Assembly: GCF_017901175.1 (NCBI RefSeq)
Contig: NZ_CP072793.1
Span: 2,666,001 to 2,730,000, forward strand
Length of the DNA stretch: 64,000 nucleotides
Direction: 5' to 3'
Source of the DNA: Thiothrix unzii
Lineage (GTDB): Bacteria; Pseudomonadota; Gammaproteobacteria; Thiotrichales; Thiotrichaceae
The notes below the pieces were generated by a model. The model ran no database searches. It worked only from the letters and a program-made list of their open reading frames with translations, and was not told where the DNA came from. Within the stretch, counting starts at the first letter, position 1. The number at the start of each line of letters is the position of its first letter. Made by a program: the position numbers and the translations under genes. This document shows, piece by piece, positions 8,723 through 23,539 of this stretch.

Positions 8723-8810
8723 GGAAAAGTGTCCGAGTGGTCGAAGGAGCACGCCTGGAAAGTGTGTATACGGTAACGTATCAAGGGTTCGAATCCCTTC
8801 TTTTCCGCCA
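8723..8810 (+). tRNA. tRNA-Ser(GGA)
   Basis: 88 bases with encoded CCA. The acceptor stem GGAAAAG pairs with CTTTTCC. The anticodon stem CACGC/GTGTG closes a loop CTGGAAA with anticodon GGA. The long variable arm (about GTATACGGTAACGTA) and the T-arm GGGTTCGAATCCC are typical of class II tRNA-Ser. Its 3' end is the integration target of the element that follows. Confidence 0.95.
8792..8803 (+). repeat. Putative attL core (12-bp direct repeat in the tRNA T-arm/acceptor)
   Basis: The sequence AATCCCTTCTTT recurs at 23528-23539 at the far end of the element, just before a second terminator. Tyrosine integrases of this class recombine at tRNA 3' ends. The repeat is short, so the exact crossover is tentative. 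Confidence 0.5.
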
Positions 8811-8839: not shown

Positions 8840-8843
8840 ACCA

Positions 8844-8880
8844 AAAGCCCTTACAGGCCGCAATCTGTAAGGGCTTTTTT
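8844..8880 (+). terminator. Rho-independent terminator after tRNA-Ser
   Basis: Stem AAAGCCCTTACAG / CTGTAAGGGCTTT with an 8-base loop (GCCGCAAT) and a run of T. It ends in the same AAAGCCC...GGGCTTTTTT form as the terminator at 23548-23585, suggesting that both element ends supply a terminator for the tRNA. Confidence 0.85.
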
Positions 8881-8902
8881 GTTTCATAGTGTTCCATTGT
8901 GT
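8881..8902 (+). repeat. Arm-type direct repeat, copy 2
   Basis: Second copy of the 22-bp repeat at 8818-8839 (3 differences). Confidence 0.5.
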
Positions 8903-8920
8903 GTCATTCCATCCCATATC

Positions 8921-8942
8921 AAAGTTTGTATTATTGTTTGTA
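8921..8942 (+). repeat. GTTTGTA double repeat, left copy
   Basis: AAAGTTTGTAT followed by four bases and GTTTGTA; a matching sequence lies at 23447-23468 near the right end in the same orientation. Probably protein-binding sites of the recombination complex (inference from position and repetition). Confidence 0.45.
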
Positions 8943-8973
8943 TCCTTACTTACCCCCACAGAGGATACAAACA

Positions 8974-10375: not shown

Positions 10376-10581
10376 TGCGACAGTTGCGACAGTTGCGACA
10401 CTTAGCGACAGACAGAGGGTAGGATAACCATATTGGTTGATAATTAATCATTTTAAAAAACATATAAGTTATTAATTTTAATAATATTATTATATTTACT
10501 ATCAATATTTAGTACCTAAGCACATGGCTATTCATCCCCAAACACATTGCGACTGCGACAGTTGCGACAGTTGCGACACTT
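10376..10581. other. Candidate replication origin: two iteron arrays bracketing A/T-rich DNA
   Basis: Two arrays of the 9-bp unit TGCGACAGT lie at 10376-10403 and 10548-10581 in the same orientation, each with three head-to-tail units, the last ending CACTT. Between them, about 10430-10520, is almost pure A/T (many TAATATTATTATA-like runs), the expected form of an unwinding element. The second array is a perfect 35-bp inverted repeat of 23357-23391 at the other end of the element. In phage P4 the primase/helicase binds iterons at ori and at a distant crr; the same division of labour is inferred here. There is no gene in this stretch. Confidence 0.6.
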
Positions 10582-10640
10582 AATTTTTAAGCAGGGTATG
10601 ACAGCACATCCAAGATGTGAAAACGTGCCTTAATACTGGT

Positions 10641-10748
10641 ATGTTTACCAACATGGAAAAAGCAGAAACCCCTTATCAGTTCACCACGCCGTCACAAGTT
10701 TGGTCGGATTTTGTAGCGGACATTCTCAAAGAAAGAGGCAAGCCATGA
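10641..10748 (+). pseudogene. Truncated TumE-like toxin C-terminus
   Basis: A 35-residue reading frame ending EKAETPYQFTTPSQVWSDF then VADILKERGKP. The ExPYxF...FxADI pattern is what I expect at the C-terminal end of TumE (DUF6516) toxins, whose usual length is about 100 residues. The N-terminal part is missing; the iteron array sits where it should be. The frame overlaps the antitoxin-like gene by 4 bases (ATGA), the normal TumE-TumA arrangement. It may survive only as a translated leader for the downstream gene. Confidence 0.45.
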
Positions 10749-11116
10749 GATACGCAATTATTAAAATTGAACCCGAATTAGCGGCTGATCTGCTGGCAAT
10801 GGGCGCGGCGTTTGACGATGCGTTAAGCACTGGCAACTATCAGGGCGAAGTGTTCAGCTTTGAAACACCCGGCGCATTATTCGCAGCCATTACCCCAAAA
10901 CGTTGGGATGTGCTGAACCGCTTGCAAGGTAAGCAACCCATGAGCATTCGTGAGTTAGCCAAGCAACTGGGGCGCGATGTGAAAAACGTACACACAGACG
11001 CAATCAAGCTGCTAGACATAGGTTTACTAGAGCGTGACGACGCGGGGCGGATATATTCACCCTTCGCAGAAATCAAAACCGAATTCACCCTAAGAGGTGA
11101 GGCGCAAGCCGCTTAA
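10745..11116 (+). CDS. HTH regulator, TumA-like antitoxin (HVO_A0114 type)
   Basis: 123 residues with a winged-helix region (RWDVLNRLQGKQPMSIRELA, KQLGRDVKNVHTDAIKLLDI, GLLERDDAGRIYSPF). The family pairs with small TumE/DUF6516 toxins. The ATG at 10745 overlaps the stop of the broken toxin frame and has an AGAGG ribosome binding site; an upstream in-frame start at 10700 lies inside that frame. With the toxin truncated, the protein is probably an orphan repressor or has been recruited for control of the element, possibly of the origin next to it (inference). Confidence 0.7.
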   Translation: MRYAIIKIEPELAADLLAMGAAFDDALSTGNYQGEVFSFETPGALFAAITPKRWDVLNRLQGKQPMSIRELAKQLGRDVKNVHTDAIKLLDIGLLERDDAGRIYSPFAEIKTEFTLRGEAQAA

Positions 11117-11185
11117 ATTACAAGGTGGAAAAGTGACAACGGATTACCAGCGATTCACCCCGGCGAATTCCTCGCTGAAATTTAA
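11117..11185 (+). pseudogene. HigA-like antitoxin fragment
   Basis: In one frame with no start codon the DNA reads GLPAIHPGEFLAEI and then a stop. IHPGEFLAE is the hallmark N-terminal motif of HigA/VapI antitoxins, which run to about 100 residues. The remainder is lost. Short match, so only suggestive. Confidence 0.35.
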
Positions 11186-11276
11186 GCAAGCGCAGCAAGA
11201 AACCGGCGCGGCATTGAATGAAGTCCAATTGATAGCCGCTTAAACCCACTCAAGACCACGAACCAAACCCCATCAG

Positions 11277-11299
11277 AGCCGCACACGTTGCGGCTTTTT
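11277..11299 (+). terminator. Terminator after the TumA-like gene
   Basis: Stem AGCCGCA / TGCGGCT, loop CACGT, followed by TTTTA. Also faces the convergent HAD-like gene. Confidence 0.75.
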
Positions 11300-11362
11300 A
11301 ATGCCCACCACATCACTAGCGGCAATGAGCGTTAGAAAAGACCGCATCATTGACAAAATCAT

Positions 11363-11731
11363 TCACATTTTGCGCAAAGCGGCTGGGACATAGCGGGGAG
11401 TTATTTCTAGCATAGCGGTATCGCCTGAAAAGCTTTTTCTACCTAACCATTGTTCAGGCATGAGGGGTATTGTTTCAGGACGATCATCAATCCAAATGTC
11501 TGGGCTGAATCCAAAGCGGCGTGCAATCTCCCTTTTTGGCTGGTGATTGCAAAATACAACAGGCATGTACTCACCTATTGTCCGGCTTAGTTCCTGCTTA
11601 TTCTTTGCGGTAGCACCGCGAGAAGTGACGCAGACAAATTCATACCCCATGCCTTTGAACAAATGAACAAAATCAGGCCAAGCGGCGGGGTGACTCGTCC
11701 AAGTATTGTCATAATCTAGTGCTATTAACAT
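11363..11731 (-). CDS. Small HAD-superfamily hydrolase
   Basis: 122 residues. The N-terminal LIALDYDNTWT carries the HAD nucleophile motif DxDxT; a Thr/Ser follows in FVCVTSRG, a basic region in NHQPKREIARRFGF, and an acidic motif in DIWIDDRPE. There is no cap domain, as in small phage-borne HAD phosphatases. The ATG at 11731 has a strong AGGAAGG site 8 bases upstream; the longer frame to 11800 lacks one. It is transcribed against its neighbours. The substrate is unknown; nucleotide or polynucleotide 5'/3' phosphate trimming is one possibility. Confidence 0.7.
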   Translation of the reverse strand: MLIALDYDNTWTSHPAAWPDFVHLFKGMGYEFVCVTSRGATAKNKQELSRTIGEYMPVVFCNHQPKREIARRFGFSPDIWIDDRPETIPLMPEQWLGRKSFSGDTAMLEITPRYVPAALRKM

Positions 11732-12043
11732 GCTGTTCACCTTCCTGTTTCCAATCCAAAAACATTTCCAATATTCCACTAATTCAAAAGACGCGGGCAT
11801 ACGCGAGAAAGAGTGCGATTTTAGATGGAAATGACATTAATTATCAATTGTAACTTATTGAATTTAATAAGTAAATATAGAAAAAACCCTCACACCGATA
11901 TGACAGAAATTATTGAGTGTGAATAGCATGATCTGATGAAAAGCAAGTGGCAATTGGCATTCCAAGAACACCACCGCAGTAACACTAAAACGGTTTTTCT
12001 GGTCTTTCCGTGGAAAGGACTGGACAATGTGATTTTTTACAAT

Positions 12044-12067
12044 ATCAACGTCGTGATGACGTGGAGA
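12044..12067 (+). promoter_or_regulatory. Conserved leader hairpin, copy 1
   Basis: ACGTC-GTGAT-GACGT followed by GGAG (the ribosome binding site) 8-10 bases before the start codon at 12074. The same block occurs at 12283-12306 and, with paired changes that keep the stem, at 14227-14250. Probably a translational operator or a protein-binding palindrome. The 240 bp upstream of it, back to the HAD gene, hold no other recognisable feature. Confidence 0.55.
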
Positions 12068-12073
12068 CAAACG

Positions 12074-12268
12074 ATGACCGACATTCAAGCTCAGATCAAA
12101 TCCGCCATTGACCAAGCCGACAAACACCGTGACAGCGGCGGCAACTTGAGCCAAGACGACCGCGCCGCGCTGGTTGAGATGCAGGCTCAACTATCCGACA
12201 AAATCCGCGAAATGATGCAGTTAAACGAAAGTTTGATGAATGCAATACGCCCAGTGGCAAGACTTTAA
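12074..12268 (+). CDS. Small helical protein, paralogue 1
   Basis: 64 residues, MTDIQAQIKSAIDQADKHRD..., mostly helical. Similar in pattern to the 65-residue product of the next gene (MT-I-x-Q-[IV], A-[IL]-[DN]-[QK]-A-[DE], then D-[DN]-x-AL-x-x-MQA-[QD]-L). The start is set by the GTGGAG site in the repeated leader; a longer frame from 11936 reads through that leader. The function is unknown. Confidence 0.6.
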   Translation: MTDIQAQIKSAIDQADKHRDSGGNLSQDDRAALVEMQAQLSDKIREMMQLNESLMNAIRPVARL

Positions 12269-12282
12269 CTTTTACCCTATCA

Positions 12283-12306
12283 ATCAACGTCGTGATGACG
12301 TGGAGA
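12283..12306 (+). promoter_or_regulatory. Conserved leader hairpin, copy 2
   Basis: Identical core to copy 1 (ATCAACGTCGTGATGACG then TGGAGA), placed just before the start codon at 12313. Confidence 0.55.
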
Positions 12307-12312
12307 TAAGAC

Positions 12313-12510
12313 ATGACTACGATCAAGAACCAAGTAACTGCCGCGCTCAATAAAGCAGAGCATGGTAAACGTAATGGGGTATTACACCCCGACGACAACA
12401 CCGCCTTAGCAAATATGCAAGCCGACCTCACCGCAAAAATCGCCGAACTCGAAGCAGAAAACCACCGGATTGGTGTTTATTTTTCAGAGCTAAAAGGCCA
12501 TTACTCGTAA
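12313..12510 (+). CDS. Small helical protein, paralogue 2
   Basis: 65 residues, MTTIKNQVTAALNKAEHGKR..., ending in a short coiled-coil (ANMQADLTAKIAELEAENHR). It appears to be a tandem duplicate of the preceding gene, leader included. The function is unknown. Confidence 0.6.
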   Translation: MTTIKNQVTAALNKAEHGKRNGVLHPDDNTALANMQADLTAKIAELEAENHRIGVYFSELKGHYS

Positions 12511-12525
12511 TTAAGGTGGTGTATT

Positions 12526-13248
12526 ATGTTTGACCCGATTGAAATCAAAACCGACAACGTAACGTTGTTTGCCAATCCCTTACTGCAAGCCCACTTTACA
12601 CGGTTTTACGCGCTGGAAATGGAAATTGAAACCAGCAGTCACCCGCGAAAATGGGCGGCAAAGCAAAAAACAGGTGAACGTGAACAACTGGTTAATGACT
12701 TAAACAGTGATTACCTTGTATCGCCTCAAATAATGGCGGACTTGAAAAGCAAGCAGGAAGATTTGCGCCAAGGCGTTGAAAATTCCAAAGCGAATATTGA
12801 GACGCAAAATCAAATCATTGTTGAATATGAGCAATCATTAACGGACTCTACCGACAATTACGCGGCGGCGGTCATTAACGAAAATCAAACCGCCATTGTC
12901 GCAATTGAGGAACAGAACGCAGAAACAACGCGACAAATACGCCTTGCTCAAGTCCGTAAAAATGCAAATCAATTGGTGGTTGATAAAATCCCTAAATACA
13001 TTTATGTCATTACCGGCATGATTAATGCTTTGGACGTTTTGGAAGTCCGCCGTAATTATCAGGTAGAAGTTGCTGCTTTTGCCGCTACCCGTGCCGCTTT
13101 TATCACTGCATTTAAGGATTACATCCAGCGATGTGAAAACATTTGTCCCGGCGTGAAACGATTTGACGCAAGATATAACCCAGAAGAAACCGTCAGAGTC
13201 CTGTTACAGGACTTGGGTTATAGTCCCTCTCAATTGTTAATCCGTTAA
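12526..13248 (+). CDS. Unknown coiled-coil protein, 240 residues
   Basis: Begins MFDPIEIKTDNVTLFANPLL. A glutamine/glutamate-rich central region (about residues 75-140, with LKSKQEDLRQGVENSKANIE) is predicted to be a coiled coil. There is no signal peptide or membrane helix and no recognised domain. It has its own GGTGG-type site and lies 15 bases after the small paralogue gene, so is probably co-transcribed. Size and helical content would suit a structural or scaffold-like protein, but nothing shows this. Confidence 0.55.
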   Translation: MFDPIEIKTDNVTLFANPLLQAHFTRFYALEMEIETSSHPRKWAAKQKTGEREQLVNDLNSDYLVSPQIMADLKSKQEDLRQGVENSKANIETQNQIIVEYEQSLTDSTDNYAAAVINENQTAIVAIEEQNAETTRQIRLAQVRKNANQLVVDKIPKYIYVITGMINALDVLEVRRNYQVEVAAFAATRAAFITAFKDYIQRCENICPGVKRFDARYNPEETVRVLLQDLGYSPSQLLIR

Positions 13249-13269
13249 CCAGTTTCATCGTGGTCATTT

Positions 13270-13288
13270 CCCCGTCATTACGACGGGG
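13270..13288 (+). promoter_or_regulatory. Hairpin in the leader of the ClpP-like gene
   Basis: CCCCGTC-ATTAC-GACGGGG, a perfect 7-bp stem followed by ACTTTTAAGGAT. It may be a weak terminator of the preceding gene or a leader structure; the AAGGA after it is the ribosome binding site for 13307. Confidence 0.5.
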
Positions 13289-13306
13289 ACTTTTAAGGAT
13301 ACGATC

Positions 13307-13999
13307 ATGGGTAATTTTAAAAACTCACTTGATGATTTTTGCACGTTCGGGAAATCCGTTAATAATCATCCCATTACCGCCAAGGACAGCGGCAAAAGCG
13401 CGGAAATCAATTTGTACGGTGTGATTGGTGGATACACTGCCAACCTTGCCCAATTCAAGCGCGATCTGGATGCAGCAGGCAAGGCTGATAACATCACCAT
13501 CTGCCTGAATACGATTGGTGGTTCTTTTGCAGACGGCTTGCCAATTCATAACCTGATTAAACAACACCCCGCGTTCATCACCGTTAAGATCATGGGTTAC
13601 GCACTGTCTATTGGTTCGGTCATTATGTTGGCTGCTAATCGTGTGGAATGTGCAGAAAACGGCTTAGTGATGATTCACCGGGCGCAAGGCTTTACCTACG
13701 GTGACGCAGCCGACCACCAGAAAAACGCTGAAATTTTGCAAAAGCATGAACAGGCAGTTATCCCCGCGTATGCACGACGGCTAGGCAAAACCGAAGGCCA
13801 AGTATTGGCACTGCTACAGGAAGAAACGTGGTACACCGCGAAAGAGGCAAAAGCGGCGGGGTTAGTGGATGCGATAACAAATAAAGCGGATATGGACAAA
13901 GCCGAAGAAACCGCAGGTATGCAGGGCGAAGGCTTGAAACTGATTAACGCTTATCGCAACCGACCGGCAACATTAATACAGCGAGGGCATTATTCGTGA
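13307..13999 (+). CDS. ClpP-like serine protease (phage head-maturation type)
   Basis: 230 residues. Core motifs of the Clp/crotonase fold: LNTIGGSFADGLPIHNLIK, the nucleophile region MGYALSIGSVIMLAA (Ser in ALS), the His in GLVMIHRAQGFTYG and an Asp in AKAAGLVDAI, so the Ser-His-Asp triad looks intact. In tailed phages such proteins cleave the scaffold or capsid during prohead maturation. Here no capsid, portal or terminase gene is nearby, which is unusual. It might act on a helper phage capsid or on other substrates. The following gene overlaps its stop by 4 bases. Confidence 0.85.
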   Translation: MGNFKNSLDDFCTFGKSVNNHPITAKDSGKSAEINLYGVIGGYTANLAQFKRDLDAAGKADNITICLNTIGGSFADGLPIHNLIKQHPAFITVKIMGYALSIGSVIMLAANRVECAENGLVMIHRAQGFTYGDAADHQKNAEILQKHEQAVIPAYARRLGKTEGQVLALLQEETWYTAKEAKAAGLVDAITNKADMDKAEETAGMQGEGLKLINAYRNRPATLIQRGHYS

Positions 14000-14214
14000 G
14001 TAGTGGCGTTTACAAAGTTTTTCGGGATGAAATCGTAAATTCAACCTTTCAAGACTACCCGACCGCTTGCAAAGCAGCGCGATTAAAAGCGTTACGGGAT
14101 GAGCATTCTGATTATACGGTGGTTAATTACCAAGACGGTAAAAATCACCTGATGTACAAGGTAAAGACGCATAACGGGTTATTGATTTATACCCCATTAT
14201 CTTTATCGAGATAG
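13996..14214 (+). CDS. Small unknown protein, 72 residues
   Basis: A GTG start overlapping the stop of the ClpP-like gene by 4 bases (GTGA), so translationally coupled. Basic and aromatic (VYKVFRDEIVNSTFQDYPTA). No recognised domain. The coupling suggests a partner or specificity factor of the protease (inference). Confidence 0.5.
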   Translation: MSSGVYKVFRDEIVNSTFQDYPTACKAARLKALRDEHSDYTVVNYQDGKNHLMYKVKTHNGLLIYTPLSLSR

Positions 14215-14226
14215 TTTTAAACCTCA

Positions 14227-14250
14227 ATCAATGTCGTGATGACATGGAGC
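14227..14250 (+). promoter_or_regulatory. Conserved leader hairpin, copy 3 (covarying)
   Basis: ATGTC-GTGAT-GACAT then GGAG: compared with the other copies one stem pair changed from C-G to T-A on both sides, keeping the palindrome. It precedes the interrupted frame at 14257. Confidence 0.55.
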
Positions 14251-14256
14251 AAATCA

Positions 14257-14397
14257 ATGAATACAACCTATCGTCAAGCCCAATAATGGGCAAACCATCA
14301 CCGCCCACACGTAGAGCGTCGGGCGCGTTCTGCCCACGGTGCGTACAGTGCCAACCTTGCCCATGAATGGTGCGAACTTATGAGAACGATCTTGTAA
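14257..14397 (+). pseudogene. Small ORF interrupted by one in-frame stop
   Basis: After the leader hairpin the frame reads MNTTYRQAQ, a TAA at 14284-14286, then WANHHRPHVERRARSAHGAY and on to a second stop at 14395, 46 codons in all including the stop. Presumably a nonsense-mutated relative of the other leader-controlled small genes, although the residue pattern is different. An authentic 9-residue peptide is also possible. Confidence 0.35.
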
Positions 14398-14451
14398 CAC
14401 TTGCAAAATGCCTTGGCTTGTCCGACATTCGGGCAGTCAGGGACAAACAAT

Positions 14452-14482
14452 AAAAAAAGGGAAGCTGGCGGGCTTCCCTTTT
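14452..14482. terminator. Bidirectional terminator before the A/T-rich cargo gene
   Basis: AAAAGGGAAG / CTTCCCTTTT with an 8-base loop (CTGGCGGG); A-tract on the left and T-tract on the right. Confidence 0.8.
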
Positions 14483-14528
14483 GCGTTCCCTGTATGGATT
14501 TTTCGACGATCTGACAGGAAGCAGCAGT

Positions 14529-15401
14529 ATGAATGAAAACAGTCATTATAAGCAAGTAAGAACTTGGCTGAAGTTGAGAGGTTTTACTGATAAACATTGT
14601 GATTACCTTATTGATAAAGATAAAAAAGTTGTAAAAAGAAACAACAGAATACGAGATGGACTAATTAAAGATCACACTCAAGTGATTACTGTTGGCAATA
14701 GAAGTAACACTGTAACTCTTTCAATAATTAGAGAAACAGAGTTGACTGAATTGATAGATGCAATTGAAGCATCAAATTATAATGTTCTAGATGAATTTAT
14801 TTCTTTATCAAAAAAAGTACAGCAAGAAATGGAAATTTCAAGTATCGCACTGCTTGTTGAACCGTTTAGAGAAATATTTGAAGAAGATGGTACTAGCATT
14901 AGGTATGACTTAGCCACATCTATAGTTGAAAGAAAAATCAAACCAGTGTTATTTCCTTGGCACAATCCAAACTGTCATATTTTAGTTGGTGATGAACCTT
15001 TTTTCAGTGGGTTTGATATTAAAGAACAAATCATGGCTTATGCTCAAATAGCTAATGAATATAAAGGCTGCGCAGTAATTAACATTAACGATCTTAATAA
15101 TATTAGTTGGATAGAAAAAGAATGGGCAAATATTTGCAAGAGTTACTTAGAGCAATGTACAGATACTAAAAAAGTCAAATCAAGAAATATAAAGCCTTCC
15201 ACACTTGCCCTGTATAAGAAATGGTATGAACGTCTACTAGCAATCAAGCAAGAGTGTGAAAACAAGGATGAATACTTTTCTGAAAATAACGCACACGAAC
15301 AAATTGCAGGCGAAGAGAAAAAAGACACCAGTACCATAGACAAGGGAATCAGGGCTTACCTAGCCACCGTGGAATGTTCGGAAATTTCCGAAAATTCCTA
15401 A
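14529..15401 (+). CDS. A/T-rich cargo gene, unknown function, 290 residues
   Basis: Base composition is clearly more A/T-rich than every neighbour, with AAA/ATT-rich codon use, so it was probably acquired separately. The ATG at 14529 has an AGGAAG site; the longer frame from 14481 begins inside the terminator. The protein is soluble and Lys/Glu/Asn rich with no recognised motif (KHCDYLIDKDKKVVKRNN near residue 20; VERKIKPVLFPWHNPNCHIL near residue 140). It stands alone between two terminators at a place where satellites often carry anti-phage genes; that role is a guess from position only. Confidence 0.65.
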   Translation: MNENSHYKQVRTWLKLRGFTDKHCDYLIDKDKKVVKRNNRIRDGLIKDHTQVITVGNRSNTVTLSIIRETELTELIDAIEASNYNVLDEFISLSKKVQQEMEISSIALLVEPFREIFEEDGTSIRYDLATSIVERKIKPVLFPWHNPNCHILVGDEPFFSGFDIKEQIMAYAQIANEYKGCAVININDLNNISWIEKEWANICKSYLEQCTDTKKVKSRNIKPSTLALYKKWYERLLAIKQECENKDEYFSENNAHEQIAGEEKKDTSTIDKGIRAYLATVECSEISENS

Positions 15402-15442
15402 ACTTCCGGTTTCTCTCCTGCTAAAAATCACTCAGACACAAA

Positions 15443-15466
15443 AAACCGGAAGGGGCAACCATCCGG
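15443..15466 (+). terminator. Possible terminator after the cargo gene
   Basis: CCGGA / TCCGG stem with an 11-base loop (AGGGGCAACCA) and CTTCATT after it; weak. Confidence 0.4.
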
Positions 15467-15539
15467 GCTTCATTGCTTAATTTTTATGACTGATAGGAGT
15501 CCATTATATGGGCTACAGCAACGCTTTGCCTAAAAACCC

Positions 15540-15764
15540 CTACTTACCCGCTTTGGTGAGTTCTTCCCGTATCAGTTCCCGGACTTGTACAGCGGTAAGC
15601 GGTTGTTCATCGGCGGATAGCTCCAAGAATGAAGCTTCAAGCCTTAGCAGCATTTCAGCATTCAGCGACCTACCGGCTGCTTTCGCGGCGGCATCAAGTT
15701 TTTCCCTAAGTTCTTTGGTAAGCCTTACGGGGTATGGGTGGATTCGTTGATCTTCTTTACTCAT
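15540..15764 (-). CDS. Arc-family ribbon-helix-helix repressor A
   Basis: 74 residues: MSKEDQRIHPYPVRLTKEL, then REKLDAAAKAAGRSLNAEML and a helical tail. PYPVRL is the beta strand that enters the DNA groove and RSLNAEML the helix-turn-helix typical of Arc/Mnt proteins. It is divergent from a related gene at 15883. A longer frame up to 15836 is possible but would run through the operator-like repeats, so the ATG at 15764 is preferred although no strong ribosome binding site is visible. Confidence 0.75.
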   Translation of the reverse strand: MSKEDQRIHPYPVRLTKELREKLDAAAKAAGRSLNAEMLLRLEASFLELSADEQPLTAVQVRELIREELTKAGK

Positions 15765-15796
15765 GACGTGATTCTGTATCGTGACTCCATTTCTAT

Positions 15797-15873
15797 CAAG
15801 GATAATGATGGATAGAAGTTGTATCCATTTTTCCATTACTGTAATCTATAGACTTGGATAGAAAAGGATAGGA
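15797..15873. promoter_or_regulatory. Operator region between two divergent Arc-like genes
   Basis: Contains a perfect inverted repeat ATGGATA-GAAGTTG-TATCCAT (15808-15828) and direct repeats TTGGATAG / AAGGATAG spaced 10 bases apart (15854 and 15864). Repeated GGATA half-sites between divergent repressor genes are the expected form of a mutual-repression switch. Confidence 0.55.
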
Positions 15874-15882
15874 TTTTAAGCA

Positions 15883-16044
15883 ATGACCAGTGAACGAGTA
15901 AAACCGTACCCAGTACGCCTTGATCATGAACTTTCTCAATGGGTGAAGGAACGGGCAAAGGCTGGCGATAGATCAATGAACGCGGAACTTGTCCGCATTG
16001 TGAGACAAGCAAAGGAGGCAGAAGAACAGAAACACGCGGCGTAA
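15883..16044 (+). CDS. Arc-family ribbon-helix-helix repressor B
   Basis: 53 residues, MTSERVKPYPVRLDHELSQW then VKERAKAGDRSMNAELVRIV and a charged tail. The PYPVRL...RSxNAE pattern is shared with the divergent repressor at 15540-15764, so the two are paralogues. No other frame competes here. Probably the Cro/CI-like pair of the element. Confidence 0.75.
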   Translation: MTSERVKPYPVRLDHELSQWVKERAKAGDRSMNAELVRIVRQAKEAEEQKHAA

Positions 16045-16055
16045 GCCATAACGAA

Positions 16056-16079
16056 CAAACCCCGCATGGTGCGGGGCTT
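16056..16079 (+). terminator. Terminator after repressor B
   Basis: CCCCGCA / TGCGGGG stem with a 3-base loop, followed by CTTAT (short T-run). Confidence 0.6.
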
Positions 16080-16147
16080 ATCCGGGCTGAAAGGTGCGTC
16101 AACACCCAAACAGCCCATTTACTGACACGATTTAGAGAACTCAGCAA

Positions 16148-16390
16148 ATGAAAGCTAATGTTATCACAACGCCTAACGGCACAAACAAGACCTATGAATC
16201 TGACATCTTGATTACTGTTACAGGTATCAAACCCGGCGCGGATAGCGCGATCCTCAGCGAATATCTGGCGAACTTCCTGCACTGCCAAGGCTTACAAGTT
16301 GAGATTGCAGGCCATGCCGTCCAACACGGGAACCACTACCCGCAAGCCGTCACCATTCGCACCGCTACCCGCGTGGGAGGTGCAGCGTGA
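16148..16390 (+). CDS. Small unknown protein, 80 residues
   Basis: MKANVITTPNGTNKTYESDI... with no recognised domain. It is the first gene of a chain of tiny genes linked by 4-base overlaps. A GTG start of the next gene overlaps its stop (GTGA). Confidence 0.5.
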   Translation: MKANVITTPNGTNKTYESDILITVTGIKPGADSAILSEYLANFLHCQGLQVEIAGHAVQHGNHYPQAVTIRTATRVGGAA

Positions 16391-16752
16391 ATAAGCAAGA
16401 ACATAACCAACTAGAAGAGATTCACCGCCATATCTATGGCTACTCGGCCTTAATCGGTGTTGCTCTCAATGCTTTGGAATATCAAAGCACGCTGAATGAC
16501 GACATGGAAACAGCACATATTGAGCTGGTTTTGAGAAACCTTCATTACGACCTTGCGGCGCAATGTGAAGGTATTGAAAAAATGCTCGAAGCAGCACAAG
16601 CAAAGTTCCAAGCCGATGCACAAGCAGAACAAGCACGTAAGGAAAAAGAGTGGACGGATTCACGCCTAGCCGACATCCCACCCGGCGCAGTTGAAGCGTT
16701 TCAGGCAGTTAATGCGGTTTACCGCGCACATTCAAAGGGGAAAAAGGCATGA
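16387..16752 (+). CDS. Small helical protein, 121 residues
   Basis: Highly helical, with an Ala/Gln/Lys/Glu coiled-coil tract (KFQADAQAEQARKEKEW). Starts with GTG overlapping the previous stop and ends in ATGA overlapping the next start. The function is unknown. Confidence 0.55.
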   Translation: MNKQEHNQLEEIHRHIYGYSALIGVALNALEYQSTLNDDMETAHIELVLRNLHYDLAAQCEGIEKMLEAAQAKFQADAQAEQARKEKEWTDSRLADIPPGAVEAFQAVNAVYRAHSKGKKA

Positions 16753-16928
16753 TCACCAACACCCTACCCTTTGAACAACGTCTGAAAATGGCACAAGCCG
16801 TTATTGACGCTCACCTGCAACGTGCCAAGCCTGCACACCGTCAAATCCTCCTAAACAGCATGTGGGCGCGTTGGATTAACCGCAACGTGATGAACCACAA
16901 GCCGACATTGCGTGAGGTGAAGCCATGA
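16749..16928 (+). CDS. Small unknown protein, 59 residues
   Basis: MITNTLPFEQRLKMAQAVID then AHLQRAKPAHRQIL..., basic. Linked by ATGA overlaps on both sides, which is the main evidence that it is translated. Confidence 0.5.
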   Translation: MITNTLPFEQRLKMAQAVIDAHLQRAKPAHRQILLNSMWARWINRNVMNHKPTLREVKP

Positions 16929-17143
16929 GCCGCGAACTTGATCAAATCGACCTCTTTGCAGGCACACCGGATACAACCGTATCCACCCCACCGGCTGAGT
17001 TGAAATCTGTAACAGAAATCAAACCGACCGCTTGCCCACCGCGCACGATTTACAGCGTGGAGCGTTTGCCCAACGGTTACACCCGCATTACCCAACACGG
17101 GCGCGTGACCTTTAACGGGTTAATTGGGAGGGCTTCAGCATGA
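16925..17143 (+). CDS. Small unknown protein, 72 residues
   Basis: Acidic N-terminus MSRELDQIDLFAGTPD followed by a proline/threonine linker and a short beta-like C-terminus (RLPNGYTRITQHGRVTFNG). Coupled by ATGA at both ends. Not recognised. Confidence 0.5.
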   Translation: MSRELDQIDLFAGTPDTTVSTPPAELKSVTEIKPTACPPRTIYSVERLPNGYTRITQHGRVTFNGLIGRASA

Positions 17144-17394
17144 AACACCAACCTATCCCCGTTTTTCGTGCCGACGTTCCCCCATTGGGCGAAACCTACA
17201 GCGGCGCAACCGTTCAAGCCGTTCAAACCGGCGAAATAATCACACTCGACATTGAGTTTTACCGGGCCACTAAAACCCGTGTTGTGATGACGTGGGGGCA
17301 AGCAAAAGCACTCACCGAACAACTGAAGGACGCAACGGCAGCAGCGGCGGCGTGCCGCGTAGCGCGTGAATCCGTGGGGGTGAATCATGGTTAA
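17140..17394 (+). CDS. Small unknown protein, 84 residues
   Basis: VPPLGETYSGATVQAVQTGE followed by a strand-rich section (ITLDIEFYRATKTRVVMTWG) and an alanine-rich helix. Coupled to neighbours by overlaps of 4 and 8 bases. Not recognised. Confidence 0.5.
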   Translation: MKHQPIPVFRADVPPLGETYSGATVQAVQTGEIITLDIEFYRATKTRVVMTWGQAKALTEQLKDATAAAAACRVARESVGVNHG

Positions 17395-17557
17395 CCTGAA
17401 CCAGCAATACAAAATCATCGTGGCCTACCGCGACGAATCCGAAACCGAACCGCAATGGATAACGTTCACCGGCACGGATAAGGAAGAGGTGCGCGGACGG
17501 TTTGAGGAATTCGCCATCTTCAACCACTGCTATTCAGTGCGTGAGGTGAATCCATGA
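17387..17557 (+). CDS. Small unknown protein, 56 residues
   Basis: MVNLNQQYKIIVAYRDESET then EPQWITFTGTDKEEVRGRFE..., one compact alpha/beta unit. It overlaps the genes before and after it, which argues for real translation. Confidence 0.5.
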   Translation: MVNLNQQYKIIVAYRDESETEPQWITFTGTDKEEVRGRFEEFAIFNHCYSVREVNP

Positions 17558-17763
17558 GCAACCACGAACAACACCTAAAAGCCGAAATTGCCCAACTGGA
17601 AGCAAAGCACTTTGCCCTGTTGGAGCGTCACGGTTACGCCTTGGAAAGCTTGCGCCGCATGGTGGAGATATTGGAATTCATGGGGCAGGAAAAGTGCATA
17701 GACGTAAAAATTGCGAAACGCTTCCTTGAAAGTCAGGAGGTGCAACAATGCGAAACGCACTAA
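17554..17763 (+). CDS. Small coiled-coil protein, 69 residues
   Basis: HEQHLKAEIAQLEAKHFALL begins a heptad-like helix; the C-terminus reads FLESQEVQQCETH. The next gene's ATG lies 16 bases inside its end and has an AGGAGG site there. Not recognised. Confidence 0.5.
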   Translation: MSNHEQHLKAEIAQLEAKHFALLERHGYALESLRRMVEILEFMGQEKCIDVKIAKRFLESQEVQQCETH

Positions 17764-18011
17764 ACACCATTCAGCAGTTAAAGCTCTTCAAGCACGCCAC
17801 CAACGGCCTAGCACTGGGATTTGTCGGGCTGTATGTCGTGGCTTTCGCCAGCATTGCCAGCAATGGCAACCACATCTACACGATTTATCGGTTCTTTCCC
17901 GTGGTTGCATCGTTGGCAATCGCCCTATCAATGTGGCGGCTACCGGATAACAGCCTGTTAAGGTTGTTTTATCTGGCGGGTTTATTCGCTATTTCATGGT
18001 TGGGGGTGTGA
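17748..18011 (+). CDS. Small membrane protein, 87 residues
   Basis: Three hydrophobic stretches (about residues 20-40, 47-62 and 69-86) separated by short loops. The site AGGAGGTGCAACA precedes the ATG. Encoded immediately before the large membrane protein, it may be its partner (inference). Confidence 0.6.
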   Translation: MRNALNTIQQLKLFKHATNGLALGFVGLYVVAFASIASNGNHIYTIYRFFPVVASLAIALSMWRLPDNSLLRLFYLAGLFAISWLGV

Positions 18012-18012
18012 T

Positions 18013-19728
18013 GTGAACCTATCAAACGCTTATACCCTCTCGCAAGATTTGAGCGAAAACACCCAAAAGCTGGAAACGCATCAAGAGGACTTGAAGGGCA
18101 TTAAAACCAGTCAGAAGGTTTTCACGATTGCCACCTATTTTATTTACTTCTCGTTCACCAGCGTTATTTTTGCCGGGGTGACGGTGTGGAACCTGCAAGA
18201 TTACATCTTTGGGAATTACACCAACGTTATCGGCATGACATGGGCACTGGTAACGGTGTTTGCTGTACCACTGGCGTTGTCGCTGGCAAAGCATTTCAAC
18301 TACAAGGCGATTGCTAAAAACAGCGTAGAGCGCAACCACCGTGGGCAGGTAATCATTCACGCGATTATCAGCCTTGCGTTGATTAGTGGGCTTTACTACG
18401 AGGCGATTAGCGCAAGCTCTAACCTACAGGCCAAGGCGTTTCATTCGGTGGAAACCAGCAAAGCAGGCGCGGCTATCCTGAATACCACCGTGGGCAGTTC
18501 ATCCACTGGGGCAATTGCCGGGTTAATCGCTGATGCTGAATTTAAGCTTGTGGCTTGCCAGCGCAAACTGGCAGAGGGCAAGACGAAAGACTGTGACAAC
18601 AGTACCGCCAAGGTTTCCAGCCTGAAACAGCAAGCGCAGGCCGAACGGGAAAGCGTAGCAACTGCCAATGTCGCAGCAATTGGGGCAAAGCAGGCAGCGT
18701 TAAGCAAGGAACGCGACGAACACGCCCTACCCGCAGCCAAGTACGCGGCTGAACTGGTGGATATGTCCAACGATGCGGGAACCATGATTATTGTCATTAT
18801 TGCCGCCTTGTTTTTTGAGCTGATTCACATTACCACGATATTCAATGAGGCACGGGCATTACGCGGCATTGATACCTACAGTTTCTCGCTGAAAGGTTTG
18901 AATGGTGAGTATTTCCGGGCAACGGGTAAGACCTTCGATTCTGGCGACTTCAAAGACAATCGCACCATTGATTTGTCCGACAAGCCATTAAATGTCCCAA
19001 TGGATGACCAAGGCGCGGACTTTGAAATCAGAACCAAAGGCACGCCATACGCTGACAATAAAACCGGTTTCGGATTTATTCCCCAAACTGCCAAGCTATT
19101 TAAATGGCAGGCCGACGAAGTGCAGGCGGAAAAGCCCGGATTCGGGTTTATCCCTGCCCGTTCCAACCAAGACCAAGACGCTGAAAACCGCCGCAAGTAT
19201 CCGCAGGAGATTCTATACCCCACCGGCAAAGGCAAGACGGCGGACGACTACGCATTGATTCCGCGTGAGGACTTCAAACGCACTAATCCAGCCGTACCGG
19301 GCCACACTTACCGCGATGAATTGCGCACCGGTTCCAGCGATTACCGGGATATGCCGCTAGATGCAACCACTACCCCACCGGCTGAAAAACCACTTCAGGA
19401 AACCACCACGAAACCCTTAGCTAAGGGTTCTGAAGTGGTTGAGGCCAAACCCTTAGCTAAGGGTTCTGAAGGCACTGAAAGCCTTTACGGTGAATGGGTT
19501 GCAGCGGTGCGGATAGGTGAGTGTAAACCCTCTGTTGAACCTACATGGCATTGGGTGCAAAAGCGCATTGCTCCAACCGAAACGGGCAGTAAAACCAACG
19601 ACCGCACCCGCATAAGTAATATGCAAAAAGCATTCTTTAGCCGTGCGATCCGCGAAGGGCTGATGCAGGTAAACCCGATTTACCGTAACGGCGGTAAAAA
19701 GTACATCTGGAGAGGAACCCACGCATGA
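18013..19728 (+). CDS. Large unknown membrane protein with coiled-coil ectodomain, 571 residues
   Basis: GTG start one base after the previous stop. Three membrane helices (about residues 35-58, 70-92 and 110-132) are followed by a roughly 120-residue Ala/Lys/Gln-rich coiled coil with two cysteines (LVACQRKLAEGKTKDC), a fourth helix near residue 260 (MIIVIIAALFFELIHITTIF) and a long cytoplasmic tail. The tail contains two GFGFIP motifs, a KPLAKGSE repeat encoded by a DNA palindrome, and a C-terminal folded unit resembling a short winged-helix (RISNMQKAFFSRAIREGLMQ). No family is recognised; mobile-element membrane proteins with this topology are generally uncharacterised. Confidence 0.6.
   Translation: MNLSNAYTLSQDLSENTQKLETHQEDLKGIKTSQKVFTIATYFIYFSFTSVIFAGVTVWNLQDYIFGNYTNVIGMTWALVTVFAVPLALSLAKHFNYKAIAKNSVERNHRGQVIIHAIISLALISGLYYEAISASSNLQAKAFHSVETSKAGAAILNTTVGSSSTGAIAGLIADAEFKLVACQRKLAEGKTKDCDNSTAKVSSLKQQAQAERESVATANVAAIGAKQAALSKERDEHALPAAKYAAELVDMSNDAGTMIIVIIAALFFELIHITTIFNEARALRGIDTYSFSLKGLNGEYFRATGKTFDSGDFKDNRTIDLSDKPLNVPMDDQGADFEIRTKGTPYADNKTGFGFIPQTAKLFKWQADEVQAEKPGFGFIPARSNQDQDAENRRKYPQEILYPTGKGKTADDYALIPREDFKRTNPAVPGHTYRDELRTGSSDYRDMPLDATTTPPAEKPLQETTTKPLAKGSEVVEAKPLAKGSEGTESLYGEWVAAVRIGECKPSVEPTWHWVQKRIAPTETGSKTNDRTRISNMQKAFFSRAIREGLMQVNPIYRNGGKKYIWRGTHA
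19388..19465. repeat. Nested palindromes inside the 571-residue gene
   Basis: The perfect palindrome AACCCTTAGCTAAGGGTT lies at 19412-19429 and again at 19448-19465. The first copy is enclosed by AACCACTTCAG (19388-19398) and its exact inverse CTGAAGTGGTT (19430-19440). The insertion keeps the reading frame and encodes KPLAKGSE twice. Confidence 0.7.
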
Positions 19729-19922
19729 CCATAGAAAACACATCCAAACCAATAAAGCCTATTTATTACTGGCTTGATGGGTACTGGATAACCGACAAGG
19801 AAGAGGCCGATTTAATGGACGAAATAAACGCTTTTGGTAGCACGCACGGCACGGCATTTTTCCCGGCTGATGCTTCACCCGAATTGATTGATTCGGAAAT
19901 CGCCGCGCTTTTGGCGGCATAA
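19725..19922 (+). CDS. Small acidic unknown protein, 65 residues
   Basis: MTIENTSKPIKPIYYWLDGY then WITDKEEADLMDEINAFGST..., strongly acidic. Its ATG overlaps the stop of the preceding gene (ATGA). Small acidic proteins of mobile elements often inhibit host enzymes, but nothing specific supports that here. Confidence 0.5.
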   Translation: MTIENTSKPIKPIYYWLDGYWITDKEEADLMDEINAFGSTHGTAFFPADASPELIDSEIAALLAA

Positions 19923-19980
19923 CCCCCACCGGGCAGGGCGCAAGCCTTGCCAACTTTTACGACCTGAAAAGGATATGCAA

Positions 19981-20241
19981 ATGATAGACAGAGGAAAGCT
20001 AAGAGTTACCAACTTTGACGACTACAAGCGCAGGATTCGTCAGACCAAACCTGATGCGGTCTTTACCGACCGTTGGTTAAGTATCAGCGAATTCTGCGAA
20101 AAGGTTGGAATGAGCCGTTCAACGTATTACCGCAAATCAGCAGCAAATGAGCTACCCGCGTGCGTGCGTTGGGGGAATACCGCGAAGTGGTTGGAATCAG
20201 ACGTAGATCAATGGATGCAATCCATGAAGGATGTTTTATGA
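19981..20241 (+). CDS. AlpA-like excisionase/regulator
   Basis: 86 residues with a MerR-like helix-turn-helix (RWLSISEFCEKVGMSRSTYY, then KSAANELPACVRWGNTAKWL and ESDVDQWMQSM). This matches the AlpA family, which in P4-like elements activates integrase or aids excision. The ATG at 19981 follows AAAAGGAT at good spacing; an ATG six bases earlier is also possible. It overlaps the primase gene by 4 bases, so regulation and replication are coupled. Confidence 0.75.
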   Translation: MIDRGKLRVTNFDDYKRRIRQTKPDAVFTDRWLSISEFCEKVGMSRSTYYRKSAANELPACVRWGNTAKWLESDVDQWMQSMKDVL

Positions 20242-21290
20242 GTACCACACAAAGAAAAGCCCCTAGTGTTACCAGCACCAGAGGCGATTCAAAATTCAAC
20301 GATTTGAGCCGTAATTATAGCGCAACTGCTGAAAAACAACCACCTACAACGCTGACAAGTGCCGAGATTTTGCGGAATTTTCAGCAAGTTATGATTGAAA
20401 ATATCAAACACGCACCTGATGACATTCAGGCCACCGGCAAGCTTGAACGCTTTTCCTGTAACGGCAAAGCCGACGATTTAGCAGGGTGGTATGTCTGTCA
20501 TGAATACCACCTGATGCACAATAACCAAGCTTGTTGGGGCATGATTGGCATTTTTGGCGACTGGCGCAACGGCTTAACCTTCAAGTGGGATAGTTTCAGC
20601 GAGTTCTACGCTTTAAGCCGTGCACAACGCCAAGAGCTTGAACGCAAACAACAAGAACAGGTTGCCCAACGTCAAGCCGAACGCGCCGCCAAAGCAGCCA
20701 ACGCCCACCGCCAAGCCGTCAAAATGTGGCTATCTGCCCAACCCGCCAACACCGCACACCCTTACCTTATGCGTAAACAGGTTGGGGCATGGGGTATCCG
20801 TCAATTGGGCGAACTGTTACTAATCCCCTTGTGTGACCTTGACGGCACGTTACACAGTGTCCAAACCATCACCCCGGACGGTTCCAAACGCTTTTTAACC
20901 GGCACACCCAAGCGCGGTATGTTCCACCTCATTGGTGACTCGCTAACACATCCCGAAGGGGTGTATTTGTGTGAGGGTTACGCCACTGGTGCAAGCCTTT
21001 ATCAGGCGTATGGTTTGCCGGTATTAGTGGGATTTGATGCGGGAAACCTGCTACCTGTTGCCACCGCCTACCGCCAACGTTTTGCACACACACCCTTGAC
21101 GGTATGCGCGGATAATGACCGCAAAACACCGGGCAACCCCGGCTTAACCAAAGCGCGGGAAGTAGCCGCGACTTTACCCTGCGTGGGCTTGATCGTGCCA
21201 GAGTTCCCCGACTCTGCACCCTTGACCCTATCCGATTTCAACGATTTGACCGCATTGCTGGGAAGCAACGCACACAAGGAAACCACCTGA
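20238..21290 (+). CDS. Toprim-domain primase
   Basis: 350 residues. A charged N-terminal region is followed at about residues 130-180 by a Gln/Arg/Ala-rich helix and then a region (HPYLMRKQVGAWGIRQLGEL, LLIPLCDLDGTLHSVQTITP) that precedes a Toprim catalytic domain with GVYLCEGYATGASLYQAYGL (Glu) and LTVCADNDR (Asp-x-Asp). This is the pattern of phage and satellite primases that make RNA primers for element replication. It overlaps the DUF3987 gene by one base, and the pair together would match the primase-helicase of P4 split into two chains. Confidence 0.85.
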   Translation: MSTTQRKAPSVTSTRGDSKFNDLSRNYSATAEKQPPTTLTSAEILRNFQQVMIENIKHAPDDIQATGKLERFSCNGKADDLAGWYVCHEYHLMHNNQACWGMIGIFGDWRNGLTFKWDSFSEFYALSRAQRQELERKQQEQVAQRQAERAAKAANAHRQAVKMWLSAQPANTAHPYLMRKQVGAWGIRQLGELLLIPLCDLDGTLHSVQTITPDGSKRFLTGTPKRGMFHLIGDSLTHPEGVYLCEGYATGASLYQAYGLPVLVGFDAGNLLPVATAYRQRFAHTPLTVCADNDRKTPGNPGLTKAREVAATLPCVGLIVPEFPDSAPLTLSDFNDLTALLGSNAHKETT

Positions 21291-22873
21291 TGAACACCAC
21301 TCCTATGACTCCAACCACGGGCAAACCAGCCTTATCGGTTGTTAATGGCTTTATCCGTACCGAAAAGCCAACCGTCAACGGCTGGGAAACCCCTGAAAGC
21401 TTGATCGTTGGCACAGAAAGCGCGAAATACCCGCTTCATGCTCTCCCTGGCATTGTCGGGCAAGCAGTGCGTGAAGTGGTGGAAATCGTCAAATGCCCAC
21501 CGGCACTAGCCGCCAACTCAGCCTTATCCGTGCTATCGGTAGCGGCACAAGGGTTAGCCAATGTGCAACCCCTTCGCAGCCTGAAACCGTCACCCTTAAG
21601 CCTGTATTTGCTGTCTATTGGTGAATCTGGTGAACGTAAAACCACGGCTGATAACTTCTTTTCGGATGTGCTGGATACGTGGGCGCATCAAAAACAGCAA
21701 GAACGTGAAACCGACTTGATCAAAGGCAGGGCAGCATTAGCCGCATGGGAAAGTGAAATCACCGGTATCAAGCAGGCGATTACCCAAGCAGGGCGCAAGG
21801 GTGAAAACACCCGCGAACTGCAAGAACGTCTTGAACTGGCAGAAGCCACCAAACCTAAACCGATTCACACCCCTGATATGGTGTTTGAAGATTCCACCCC
21901 TGAATCCATTGCTTATGACCTTGCCCATAAATGGCCTAGCGCGGGTATTTTGTCAGGTGAAGCTGGCGTGGTGTTTGGTGGTCATGGGATGAAAGCCGAT
22001 AACATTACCCGCAACGTTGCCACCCTGAATAAGCTGTGGGAAGGCGGTTCCTTGTCGATCAAGCGGCGCGGCGTAGACGGCAGCTTTAACGTGCGCAACG
22101 TGCGCTTGTCGATGGGGTTAGCGGTACAGCCTAGCGTGATTCGTGACTTTTACGAAACCAATGGGGAAATAGCACGGGGTTCAGGTTTTGCCGCACGCTT
22201 TCTGTTAGCGTGGCCTGCATCCACCCAAGGGAACCGCTTCCTAAGCCTTGAAGAAGCCACCCGCAACCACCCCAAAAACAGCCTGAACTTGTTTTATGCC
22301 AAGTTGCATGAAGTACTCGAACGCCAGTACCAGAATGCACAACACGGCGCACTGGAAAACCTCCCAACTTTGCAGTTTTCCCACGACGCGCTGAAAATCT
22401 GGTTAGAGTATTTCAATAGCGTAGAAGCTGAATTAAGGGCAGGTGGTGACATGGAGTATTACCGTGATATTGCCAGCAAATCAGCCGACAACGCCGCACG
22501 ACTGGCAGGCTTGTTTCATGTATTCAACGGTGCGGATGTTCTCGACACCATCACCGGGGCAACAATGGAAGCCGCCACCACCTTAGCAAGCTGGCACTTG
22601 TACGAATCACGCCGGTTCTTTGGTGAAATTGCCGTACCCACCGACTTATCCAACGCCATTAAGTTGGATGACTGGCTTATCAGCTATTGCCGACAGAACC
22701 ACACCGACACCATCACCCGGCGCGACATCCAGCGGTTAGCACCCAACAAAGTACGCAACGGCAACGACCTAGACAAAGCACTAGGCGAACTTGAAGACGC
22801 AAACCGCATCCGGTTAACCATTGAAGGCCGTAAGCACATCATTGATGTGAATCCGGCACTGTTGAGAGGGTAG
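21290..22873 (+). CDS. DUF3987/YfjI-type replication protein
   Basis: 527 residues with an N-terminal segment (PLHALPGIVGQAVREVVEIV, KCPPALAANSALSVLSVAAQ) and a Walker A-like loop GESGERKTTAD, then the family region FEDSTPESIAYDLAHKWPSA and SGEAGVVFGGHGM. Members occur in prophages and islands next to Toprim primases and are thought to act as DNA helicases or replication initiators. The C-terminus has a winged-helix-like part (ITRRDIQRLAPNKVRNGNDL). It is the probable binder of the TGCGACAGT arrays (inference). Confidence 0.8.
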   Translation: MNTTPMTPTTGKPALSVVNGFIRTEKPTVNGWETPESLIVGTESAKYPLHALPGIVGQAVREVVEIVKCPPALAANSALSVLSVAAQGLANVQPLRSLKPSPLSLYLLSIGESGERKTTADNFFSDVLDTWAHQKQQERETDLIKGRAALAAWESEITGIKQAITQAGRKGENTRELQERLELAEATKPKPIHTPDMVFEDSTPESIAYDLAHKWPSAGILSGEAGVVFGGHGMKADNITRNVATLNKLWEGGSLSIKRRGVDGSFNVRNVRLSMGLAVQPSVIRDFYETNGEIARGSGFAARFLLAWPASTQGNRFLSLEEATRNHPKNSLNLFYAKLHEVLERQYQNAQHGALENLPTLQFSHDALKIWLEYFNSVEAELRAGGDMEYYRDIASKSADNAARLAGLFHVFNGADVLDTITGATMEAATTLASWHLYESRRFFGEIAVPTDLSNAIKLDDWLISYCRQNHTDTITRRDIQRLAPNKVRNGNDLDKALGELEDANRIRLTIEGRKHIIDVNPALLRG

Positions 22874-22876
22874 GCA

Positions 22877-23086
22877 ATGGCATTACGTGACTGGCTCGTA
22901 TGGGAAGCCCCAAACAACGCAACCGCACCCAGCCCAGTGTGGCAGGGTAAACGTTTACGTGACCGGCTGGAATGGAACACAACACCATCACCAGACCTCG
23001 AAGCACTGGCAGAACGCGCCGCGATTATGGAACACGACGGCGGACTACCCCGCCAAACAGCGGAACACCTCGCAAGGCTTAAGTGA
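22877..23086 (+). CDS. Small unknown protein at the end of the replication operon, 69 residues
   Basis: MALRDWLVWEAPNNATAPSP then VWQGKRLRDRLEWNTTP..., ending in a helix with RQTAEHLARLK. It starts 3 bases after the DUF3987 stop and is followed by a terminator, so is the last gene of the operon. Not recognised. Confidence 0.5.
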   Translation: MALRDWLVWEAPNNATAPSPVWQGKRLRDRLEWNTTPSPDLEALAERAAIMEHDGGLPRQTAEHLARLK

Positions 23087-23101
23087 ATCCTCACCACCGC
23101 A

Positions 23102-23128
23102 GAAACCGGGCAATGACCCGGTTTTTTT
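23102..23128 (+). terminator. Terminator of the replication operon
   Basis: AAACCGGG / CCCGGTTT stem with loop CAATGA and a run of seven T. Confidence 0.85.
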
Positions 23129-23142
23129 ATGCCCGCTTTTTA

Positions 23143-23393
23143 CTGTCGCAACTGTCGCAACTGTCGCAACTTCACTTGCGACACTCGATAGGCTATGCCA
23201 AAAAGCCATAACCATTTAAAAACAATAACTTAAGAAAGTCAGGTGGTGAAGTGTCGCAACTGTCGCAACTGTCGCAACCCTCTGTGCGACATTAGCCAAA
23301 CCATACGCCAACATCATAAGCATTTAAAAACAGTCACTTAGGGAAATCAGGTGGTGAAGTGTCGCAACTGTCGCAACTGTCGCAGTCGCAAAC
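23143..23393. repeat. Right iteron arrays in 108-bp tandem repeats
   Basis: Three arrays of the inverted unit (ACTGTCGCA) start at 23143, 23251 and 23359, exactly 108 bp apart. The spacers share CATTTAAAAACA...ACTTA...AGGTGGTGAA. The third array (23357-23391) is a perfect 35-bp inverted repeat of the left array at 10547-10581. No gene fits here; the arrays are the likely distant partner of the left origin. Confidence 0.8.
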
Positions 23394-23527: not shown

Positions 23528-23539
23528 AATCCCTTCTTT
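23528..23539 (+). repeat. Putative attR core
   Basis: AATCCCTTCTTT, identical to bases 8792-8803 of tRNA-Ser. Confidence 0.5.

Follow-up and report, generated by a model that had tools for sequence, protein, structure and literature searches.

The stretch of Thiothrix unzii DNA analysed here (64,000 nucleotides, NZ_CP072793.1, positions 2,666,001 to 2,730,000; hereafter the window) possesses an integrated element of 14.7 kb at a tRNA-Ser gene of the 3.72-Mb host genome. The element contains an integrase gene (int) whose product we take to be P4-like, a HVO_A0114/MarR-like helix-turn-helix (HTH) gene at 10700, small genes without assigned role, and genes for an AlpA-like, a Toprim and a DUF3987 protein (Table 1). 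The terminator after the right attachment (att) core resembles the terminator beside the tRNA in empty sites. In four genomes of the same genus (G002, G004, G009 and G012), the terminator and the gene standing right of 23540 in the window come directly after the same tRNA, and on this basis these loci were taken as empty sites. The element also carries arrays of a short repeat at both ends, and the relation of these arrays with the DUF3987 protein is described here.

Five exact triplets of the unit TGCGACA at 9-bp steps were found in the element, two on the left in forward orientation and three on the right, inverted. The original prediction, made from the letters of the window, had placed inverted repeat arrays at the two ends, and the exact positions confirmed this. 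The step of 108 bp that it gave for the right arrays is exact, with a similarity of 76% between the two 108-bp units. The perfect 35-bp inverted repeat described between one left and one right array was found at 10547-10581 and 23357-23391; a repeat comparison of the left and right array gave 42 nt at 93%. Among the predicted coordinates, that of the first left array was correct. The second left array had been placed at 10548, where a partial unit TGCGAC lies ahead of the triplet, and the right arrays were off by one base. The prediction had also overlooked the single facing units next to two of the right arrays (Table 1). The window contains 12 copies of the motif TGCGACAGT, compared with an expectation of 0.57 from shuffles, and 11 of the 12 copies are inside the arrays. 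Similarly, TGCGACANTTGCGACA with at most one mismatch was found at 10 places in the whole genome, all of them in these arrays, and the reversed-pattern control gave 0. The remaining chromosome contains no such arrays, and the wide occurrence that was feared for them was not seen. The A/T-rich stretch expected between the left arrays is also present. Three of the 14,700 90-bp stretches of the element, itself included, have an A+T content as high to two decimals. It is the probable melting region, and the left pair which encloses it resembles an origin (ori), as had been proposed.

The DUF3987 protein matched PF13148 with 292.8 bits against a curated cut-off of 27. The Pfam label of this family is still 'protein of unknown function', although the family was predicted earlier as a helicase of mobile elements (PMC5862659). 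The predicted structure shows an MCM ATPase fold with a C-terminal winged helix. The genome possesses three DUF3987 genes followed by 3' units TGCGACA, TGCTAAT and TGCTATT, respectively, and no unit was obtained for two more distant DUF3987 matches in the same genome.

The stronger result was obtained outside the window, where residues of the protein and letters of the repeat change in a matched way. DUF3987 loci collected by protein or family gave 199 genes in 176 clusters at 90% identity, and 155 of these clusters have at least one member that was not fetched via the motif. In the 600 bp downstream of every gene, GC-K-A pairs spaced by 9 bp were sought, K being any letter. Among 70 clusters with R at the position of residue 482, the free letter was G in 24, T in 2 and C in 7, with 1 tie and 36 without repeats, while the 49 clusters with Q gave 26 T, 0 G and 23 without repeats (Fisher test on 52 G/T calls, p 1.5e-12). 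The remaining 36 of the 155 clusters have other residues at this position. In the control, the 600 bp upstream, R clusters gave 1 G, 1 T, 1 A and 1 tie in 70, and Q clusters 2 T and 1 C in 49. The rule was first noticed on L085-L114. When the clusters represented by these loci were dropped, 64 R clusters gave 23 G, 2 T, 7 C, 1 tie and 31 without repeats, and 38 Q clusters gave 21 T, 0 G and 17 without repeats (p 7e-11). When alignment columns of the protein with at least 70% occupancy were scanned (n=65, including motif-selected clusters), R482 showed a corrected mutual information of 0.80 bits and the next column 0.31. A tree of 62 rows, constructed from the helicase part alone with the winged helix excluded, showed 15 changes each for residue and letter. 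On its supported branches, 7.9 of 8 independent contrasts agreed on average and 0 were opposite (median p 0.008). R478 pairs with CA after GCKA, and 63 of 65 clusters agree with this (p 4e-15). Such joint change of two residues and the repeat letters suggests that replication start follows a key-and-lock code that can be read. The proposal that the replication proteins of the element bind the arrays is thus supported for DUF3987 by covariation and is not extended to the primase, as the covariation was found with DUF3987, whose columns were scanned. In this respect the arrays show the behaviour expected of cognate sites for a replication protein encoded by the element itself. Simple tandem repeats arising from slippage or composition bias, with no protein partner, are hardly credible as an explanation. 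A few of the motif matches are indeed long simple 9-bp repeats (L063, L052), but the arrays are absent elsewhere in the host genome, recur at the same position with facing geometry and change in match with R482; the covariation comes close to refuting this explanation.

The position of the arrays was also analysed across bacteria. An exact-match scan for the triplet, in which two letters were left free, returned 64 loci, 48 of them in genome contigs and 16 in viral contigs. In these motif-selected loci a DUF3987 frame was present in 27 of 64, and in 25 of 64 the arrays were situated 22-502 bp past the DUF3987 stop; alpha-, beta- and gammaproteobacteria and others were represented. Outside the Thiothrix group the identity to the DUF3987 protein of the window is 25-42%, where measured. 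In a sample of 274 genomes from across the class, DUF3987 occurs in 30 and the triplet (at most one mismatch) in 3. All 3 belong to the 30, and in each a DUF3987 gene adjoins an array; with the genome of the window left out, two of two would occur by chance about 1 in 90. Over 65 clusters, the first array begins at a median of 59 bp after the DUF3987 stop. A face-to-face pair begins 29 of the 65, in 23 of these 29 at nearly the same spacing, and because such pairs recur at similar spacing one may speculate on two helicase rings placed head to head. The arrays could instead be sites of another protein of the element (Toprim primase, AlpA, the HTH protein at 10700, or integrase/excisionase) used for excision or gene control. 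Proteins of these types bind repeats in other elements, and the left arrays are located between int and the HTH gene. Arrays nevertheless follow DUF3987 at loci where the Toprim, AlpA and integrase queries of the window matched nothing (e.g. L017, L026, L067; divergent versions could escape), and the varying letter tracks a residue of DUF3987, the protein on which the column scan was made. This explanation is therefore considered quite improbable.

Apart from DUF3987 loci, a TGCGACA array of five units was observed 94 bp 3' of a DnaB-like AAA_25 helicase (L060:5257-5299) and another one 3' of a PrimPol-AAA_25 fusion (L011:3225-3249). Two arrays 109 bp apart adjoin a type I restriction gene at L152:10721-10863. 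The integrase and DUF3987 protein of the window had no match in the 20 kb of L152, which is possibly a passive element carrying the origin only.

Sister elements served as natural experiments. The G004 element adjoins tRNA-Pro and its DUF3987 protein is 75.9% identical, with Q replacing R482. The two left arrays are spaced by 187 bp and the three right arrays by exactly 108 bp, and 15 of 15 units are TGCTACA, which is a coherent switch of residue and letter. The same 2 + 3 arrangement and 108-bp step in G004 show that the layout, which had been regarded as out of the ordinary, is not unique to the window. Another case is the comparison of L198 with L202, where the helicase part is identical at 372 of 387 positions and the winged helix at 39 of 55, and the 3' repeats have diverged along with the winged helix. 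The G089 element shows int, arrays 178 bp apart, a contig break, DUF3987, arrays 108 bp apart and a 15-bp att copy; the break was assumed to be internal to one element. In G012, DUF3987 is inverted and stands next to the int-side arrays, as if flipped between inverted arrays. Absence of the arrays from sister elements with the same replication genes had been feared, but G089 and G012 carry them and G004 has them in changed form. In G001, the integrase is 99.6% identical, the tRNA is the same and the HTH gene is kept. No DUF3987 was found within the 40 kb read there, the left arrays are reduced to two units, and a deletion between them removed the A/T stretch.

On the basis of these comparisons, the arrays are most probably iterons of a self-initiating replicon, in which the DUF3987 protein, a predicted MCM-like AAA+ helicase, would bind the 9-bp units through its C-terminal winged helix. 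In TGC-G-ACA, the G would be read by R482, and the CA/TG step that follows probably by R478. The element would be excised at tRNA-Ser and circularised. In the circle, the left and right arrays would lie about 1.7 kb apart, with the att site and the integrase gene between them. DUF3987 would then load on the arrays, open the A/T stretch between the left pair and unwind, with primers supplied by the Toprim protein; the left group would presumably be the one that fires. The best reading is that both array groups are sites of DUF3987. The right arrays, situated at the family's usual place directly 3' of DUF3987, may represent a second loading or control site. The proposed scheme of an ori plus a distant cis site holds for the presence of two array groups. 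Which of them is distant is less certain than was proposed, and it may equally be the left one, because the right arrays hold the family-wide position 3' of DUF3987. It is unlikely that the binding of DUF3987 to the arrays serves copy-number control, partition or incompatibility while replication fires from an origin elsewhere. Iterons often play control roles, the arrays occupy two places and the A/T-rich stretch is enclosed by the left pair only. An initiator helicase would still need a loading site, and in the family survey, which covered 600 bp on each side of the gene, the arrays stood on the 3' side and were very rare upstream.

Several observations weigh against DUF3987 as an iteron-binding initiator. 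No clear turn of GC skew was found at the arrays. In the structural model R478 and R482 are located in helix 477-483, ahead of helix 491-503, and in winged helices the groove is usually entered by the helix corresponding here to 491-503. On the tree, the R478 rule was not significant (5 contrasts, of which 3.8 agree and 1.2 show no difference, p 0.125). Clusters without qualifying repeats within 600 bp 3' are many (36 of 70 with R, 23 of 49 with Q), and the seven R clusters with C are not explained by the rule. The two R clusters with T form a single clade, LQRVTP, in which an inserted residue may shift the alignment by one and bring Q to the reading position; this is a post hoc reading. N at the 482 position was found with T twice and with G once, the latter in a motif-selected locus. 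Among the 64 motif loci, 37 showed no DUF3987 frame in the stretch examined, and 20 neighbour proteins scanned in 18 of these 37 comprised 2 other replication helicases, 4 without family match and 14 of other families. In L040 the arrays lie within an over-long DUF3987 frame, and in L027 they are on the 5' side of the gene.

For the family as a whole, the case is evenly balanced that the DUF3987 helicases, as a large family, are MCM-like initiators that load themselves and carry in the winged helix an address code which can be read and can evolve. R at 482 would specify G and Q would specify T, and the presence or absence of R478 would decide between CA and other letters. This code would have been switched repeatedly by substitution or by joint swap of winged helix and origin, keeping co-resident elements from firing each other's origins; the three different 3' units within this one genome are in line with this. 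Two further pairs were observed by eye: a DUF3987 protein with E near the reading position (L306, RQVQEAK) has TGCGGGAAA repeats downstream and one with Q (L297, RQVQQAK) has TGTAGTAAA repeats downstream, perhaps representing further letters of the code. If true, DUF3987 gains a function as initiator helicase with a known location of its origin, and origins become predictable from protein sequence and vice versa. The family would also provide a natural series for the joint change of specificity of initiators and origins and for the coexistence of related mobile elements in one cell.

Other features of the element were noted along with these. A ClpP-like head maturation protease is encoded at 13307-13999 (152 bits against a curated cut-off of 120) and has a 57% homologue in a second, tandem element of G089 (L153:6272-6871). 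No further capsid gene was noticed among the scanned element proteins, and this protease is the sole hint of phage satellite status. A 35-bp repeat, 66-89% like its reference copy, occurs at 12044-12078, 12283-12317, 14227-14261 and 17275-17309, and at least 3 of the copies immediately precede small open reading frames (ORFs) or fall on their start. Two copies of a 25-bp repeat with palindromic core (19411-19435 and 19447-19471) are both within a 571-aa ORF (18013-19728). The hairpin terminator beside the tRNA and integrase genes (8843-8880) is the same as those beside the tRNAs in L154 and L151, and it also occurs at L152:11057-11093.

Table 1. Positions of the features of the tRNA-Ser element in the window
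Feature	Position	Strand	Remarks
tRNA-Ser(GGA), integration target	8723..8810	+	ARAGORN
attL core, 12 bp, AATCCCTTCTTT	8792-8803	+	inside tRNA-Ser
Tyrosine integrase with arm-binding domain	8899..10302	+	
Left array 1, three TGCGACA units	10376..10400	+	
A/T-rich stretch between left arrays	10430..10520	.	87% A+T
Left array 2, three TGCGACA units	10554..10578	+	178 bp from left array 1
AlpA-like regulator	19975..20241	+	
Toprim primase-like protein	20235..21290	+	PF13362; phrog_2249, E 5e-69
DUF3987, predicted MCM-like AAA+ initiator helicase	21290..22873	+	
Predicted C-terminal winged-helix domain, residues 446-527	22625..22870	+	fold prediction and covariation
R478, proposed iteron-reading residue	22721-22723	+	
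R482, proposed iteron-reading residue	22733-22735	+	
69-aa ORF between DUF3987 and right arrays	22877..23086	+	retained in G012 and G004 elements
Right array 1, three units	23144..23168	-	single facing unit 23177-23183 (+)
Right array 2, three units	23252..23276	-	single facing unit 23285-23291 (+)
Right array 3, three units	23360..23384	-	
attR core, AATCCCTTCTTT	23528..23539	+	copy of part of tRNA end

Satellite P4 is an integrated element in which the alpha protein, an archaeo-eukaryotic-type primase fused to a helicase, acts as initiator-helicase on ori and crr, both of which are needed. The T. unzii element is similar to P4 as a putative integrated satellite with similar integrase, a predicted initiator-helicase and probable origin sites in two places, and its two array groups would correspond to the division in ori and crr. 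It differs in having Toprim_3 and DUF3987 on separate proteins; no Prim-Pol match was found in the Toprim or the DUF3987 protein, and the fused form of alpha is not present here. The comparison with P4 that had been drawn for the arrays is fair functionally, though SaPI Rep, with its origin directly 3' of its own gene, is closer (PMC7581432). SaPI Rep and SCCmec Cch2 are self-loading initiator helicases of staphylococcal islands, and in both the C-terminal domain binds short repeats that immediately follow the helicase gene on its 3' side (PMC7581432). The element of the window likewise has repeats directly 3' of a predicted mobile-element helicase gene, and the covariation indirectly suggests that the C-terminal domain may read them. 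The helicase families are different (DUF927; D5/Primase_Cterm), and in the excerpts of that paper DUF3987 is not named and no residue-base rule was found (PMC7581432). PICMI elements combine int, alpA and a primase called by DUF3987/DUF5906 (PMC10803314). They share with the present element the integrase, the AlpA-like protein and a DUF3987 protein in a chromosomal location; PICMI are situated beside fis, whereas this element is in tRNA-Ser, and the word 'iteron' is absent from the main text of the paper (PMC10803314). In the PLE satellites of Vibrio, the ori varies in concert with the DNA-binding domain of the initiator RepA, and the two are exchanged as one module (PMC8263062). The joint variation of initiator and origin, both putative in the present element, is common to both systems, but PLE have a RepA_N domain, semi-palindromic iterons of ~30 bp, two replicon types and a RepA without a described helicase domain (PMC8263062). 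Since SaPI Rep/Cch2 and PLE are precedents and none was found for a DUF3987 origin in the excerpted literature searched, the kind of system is already known, and the readable code is its new part.

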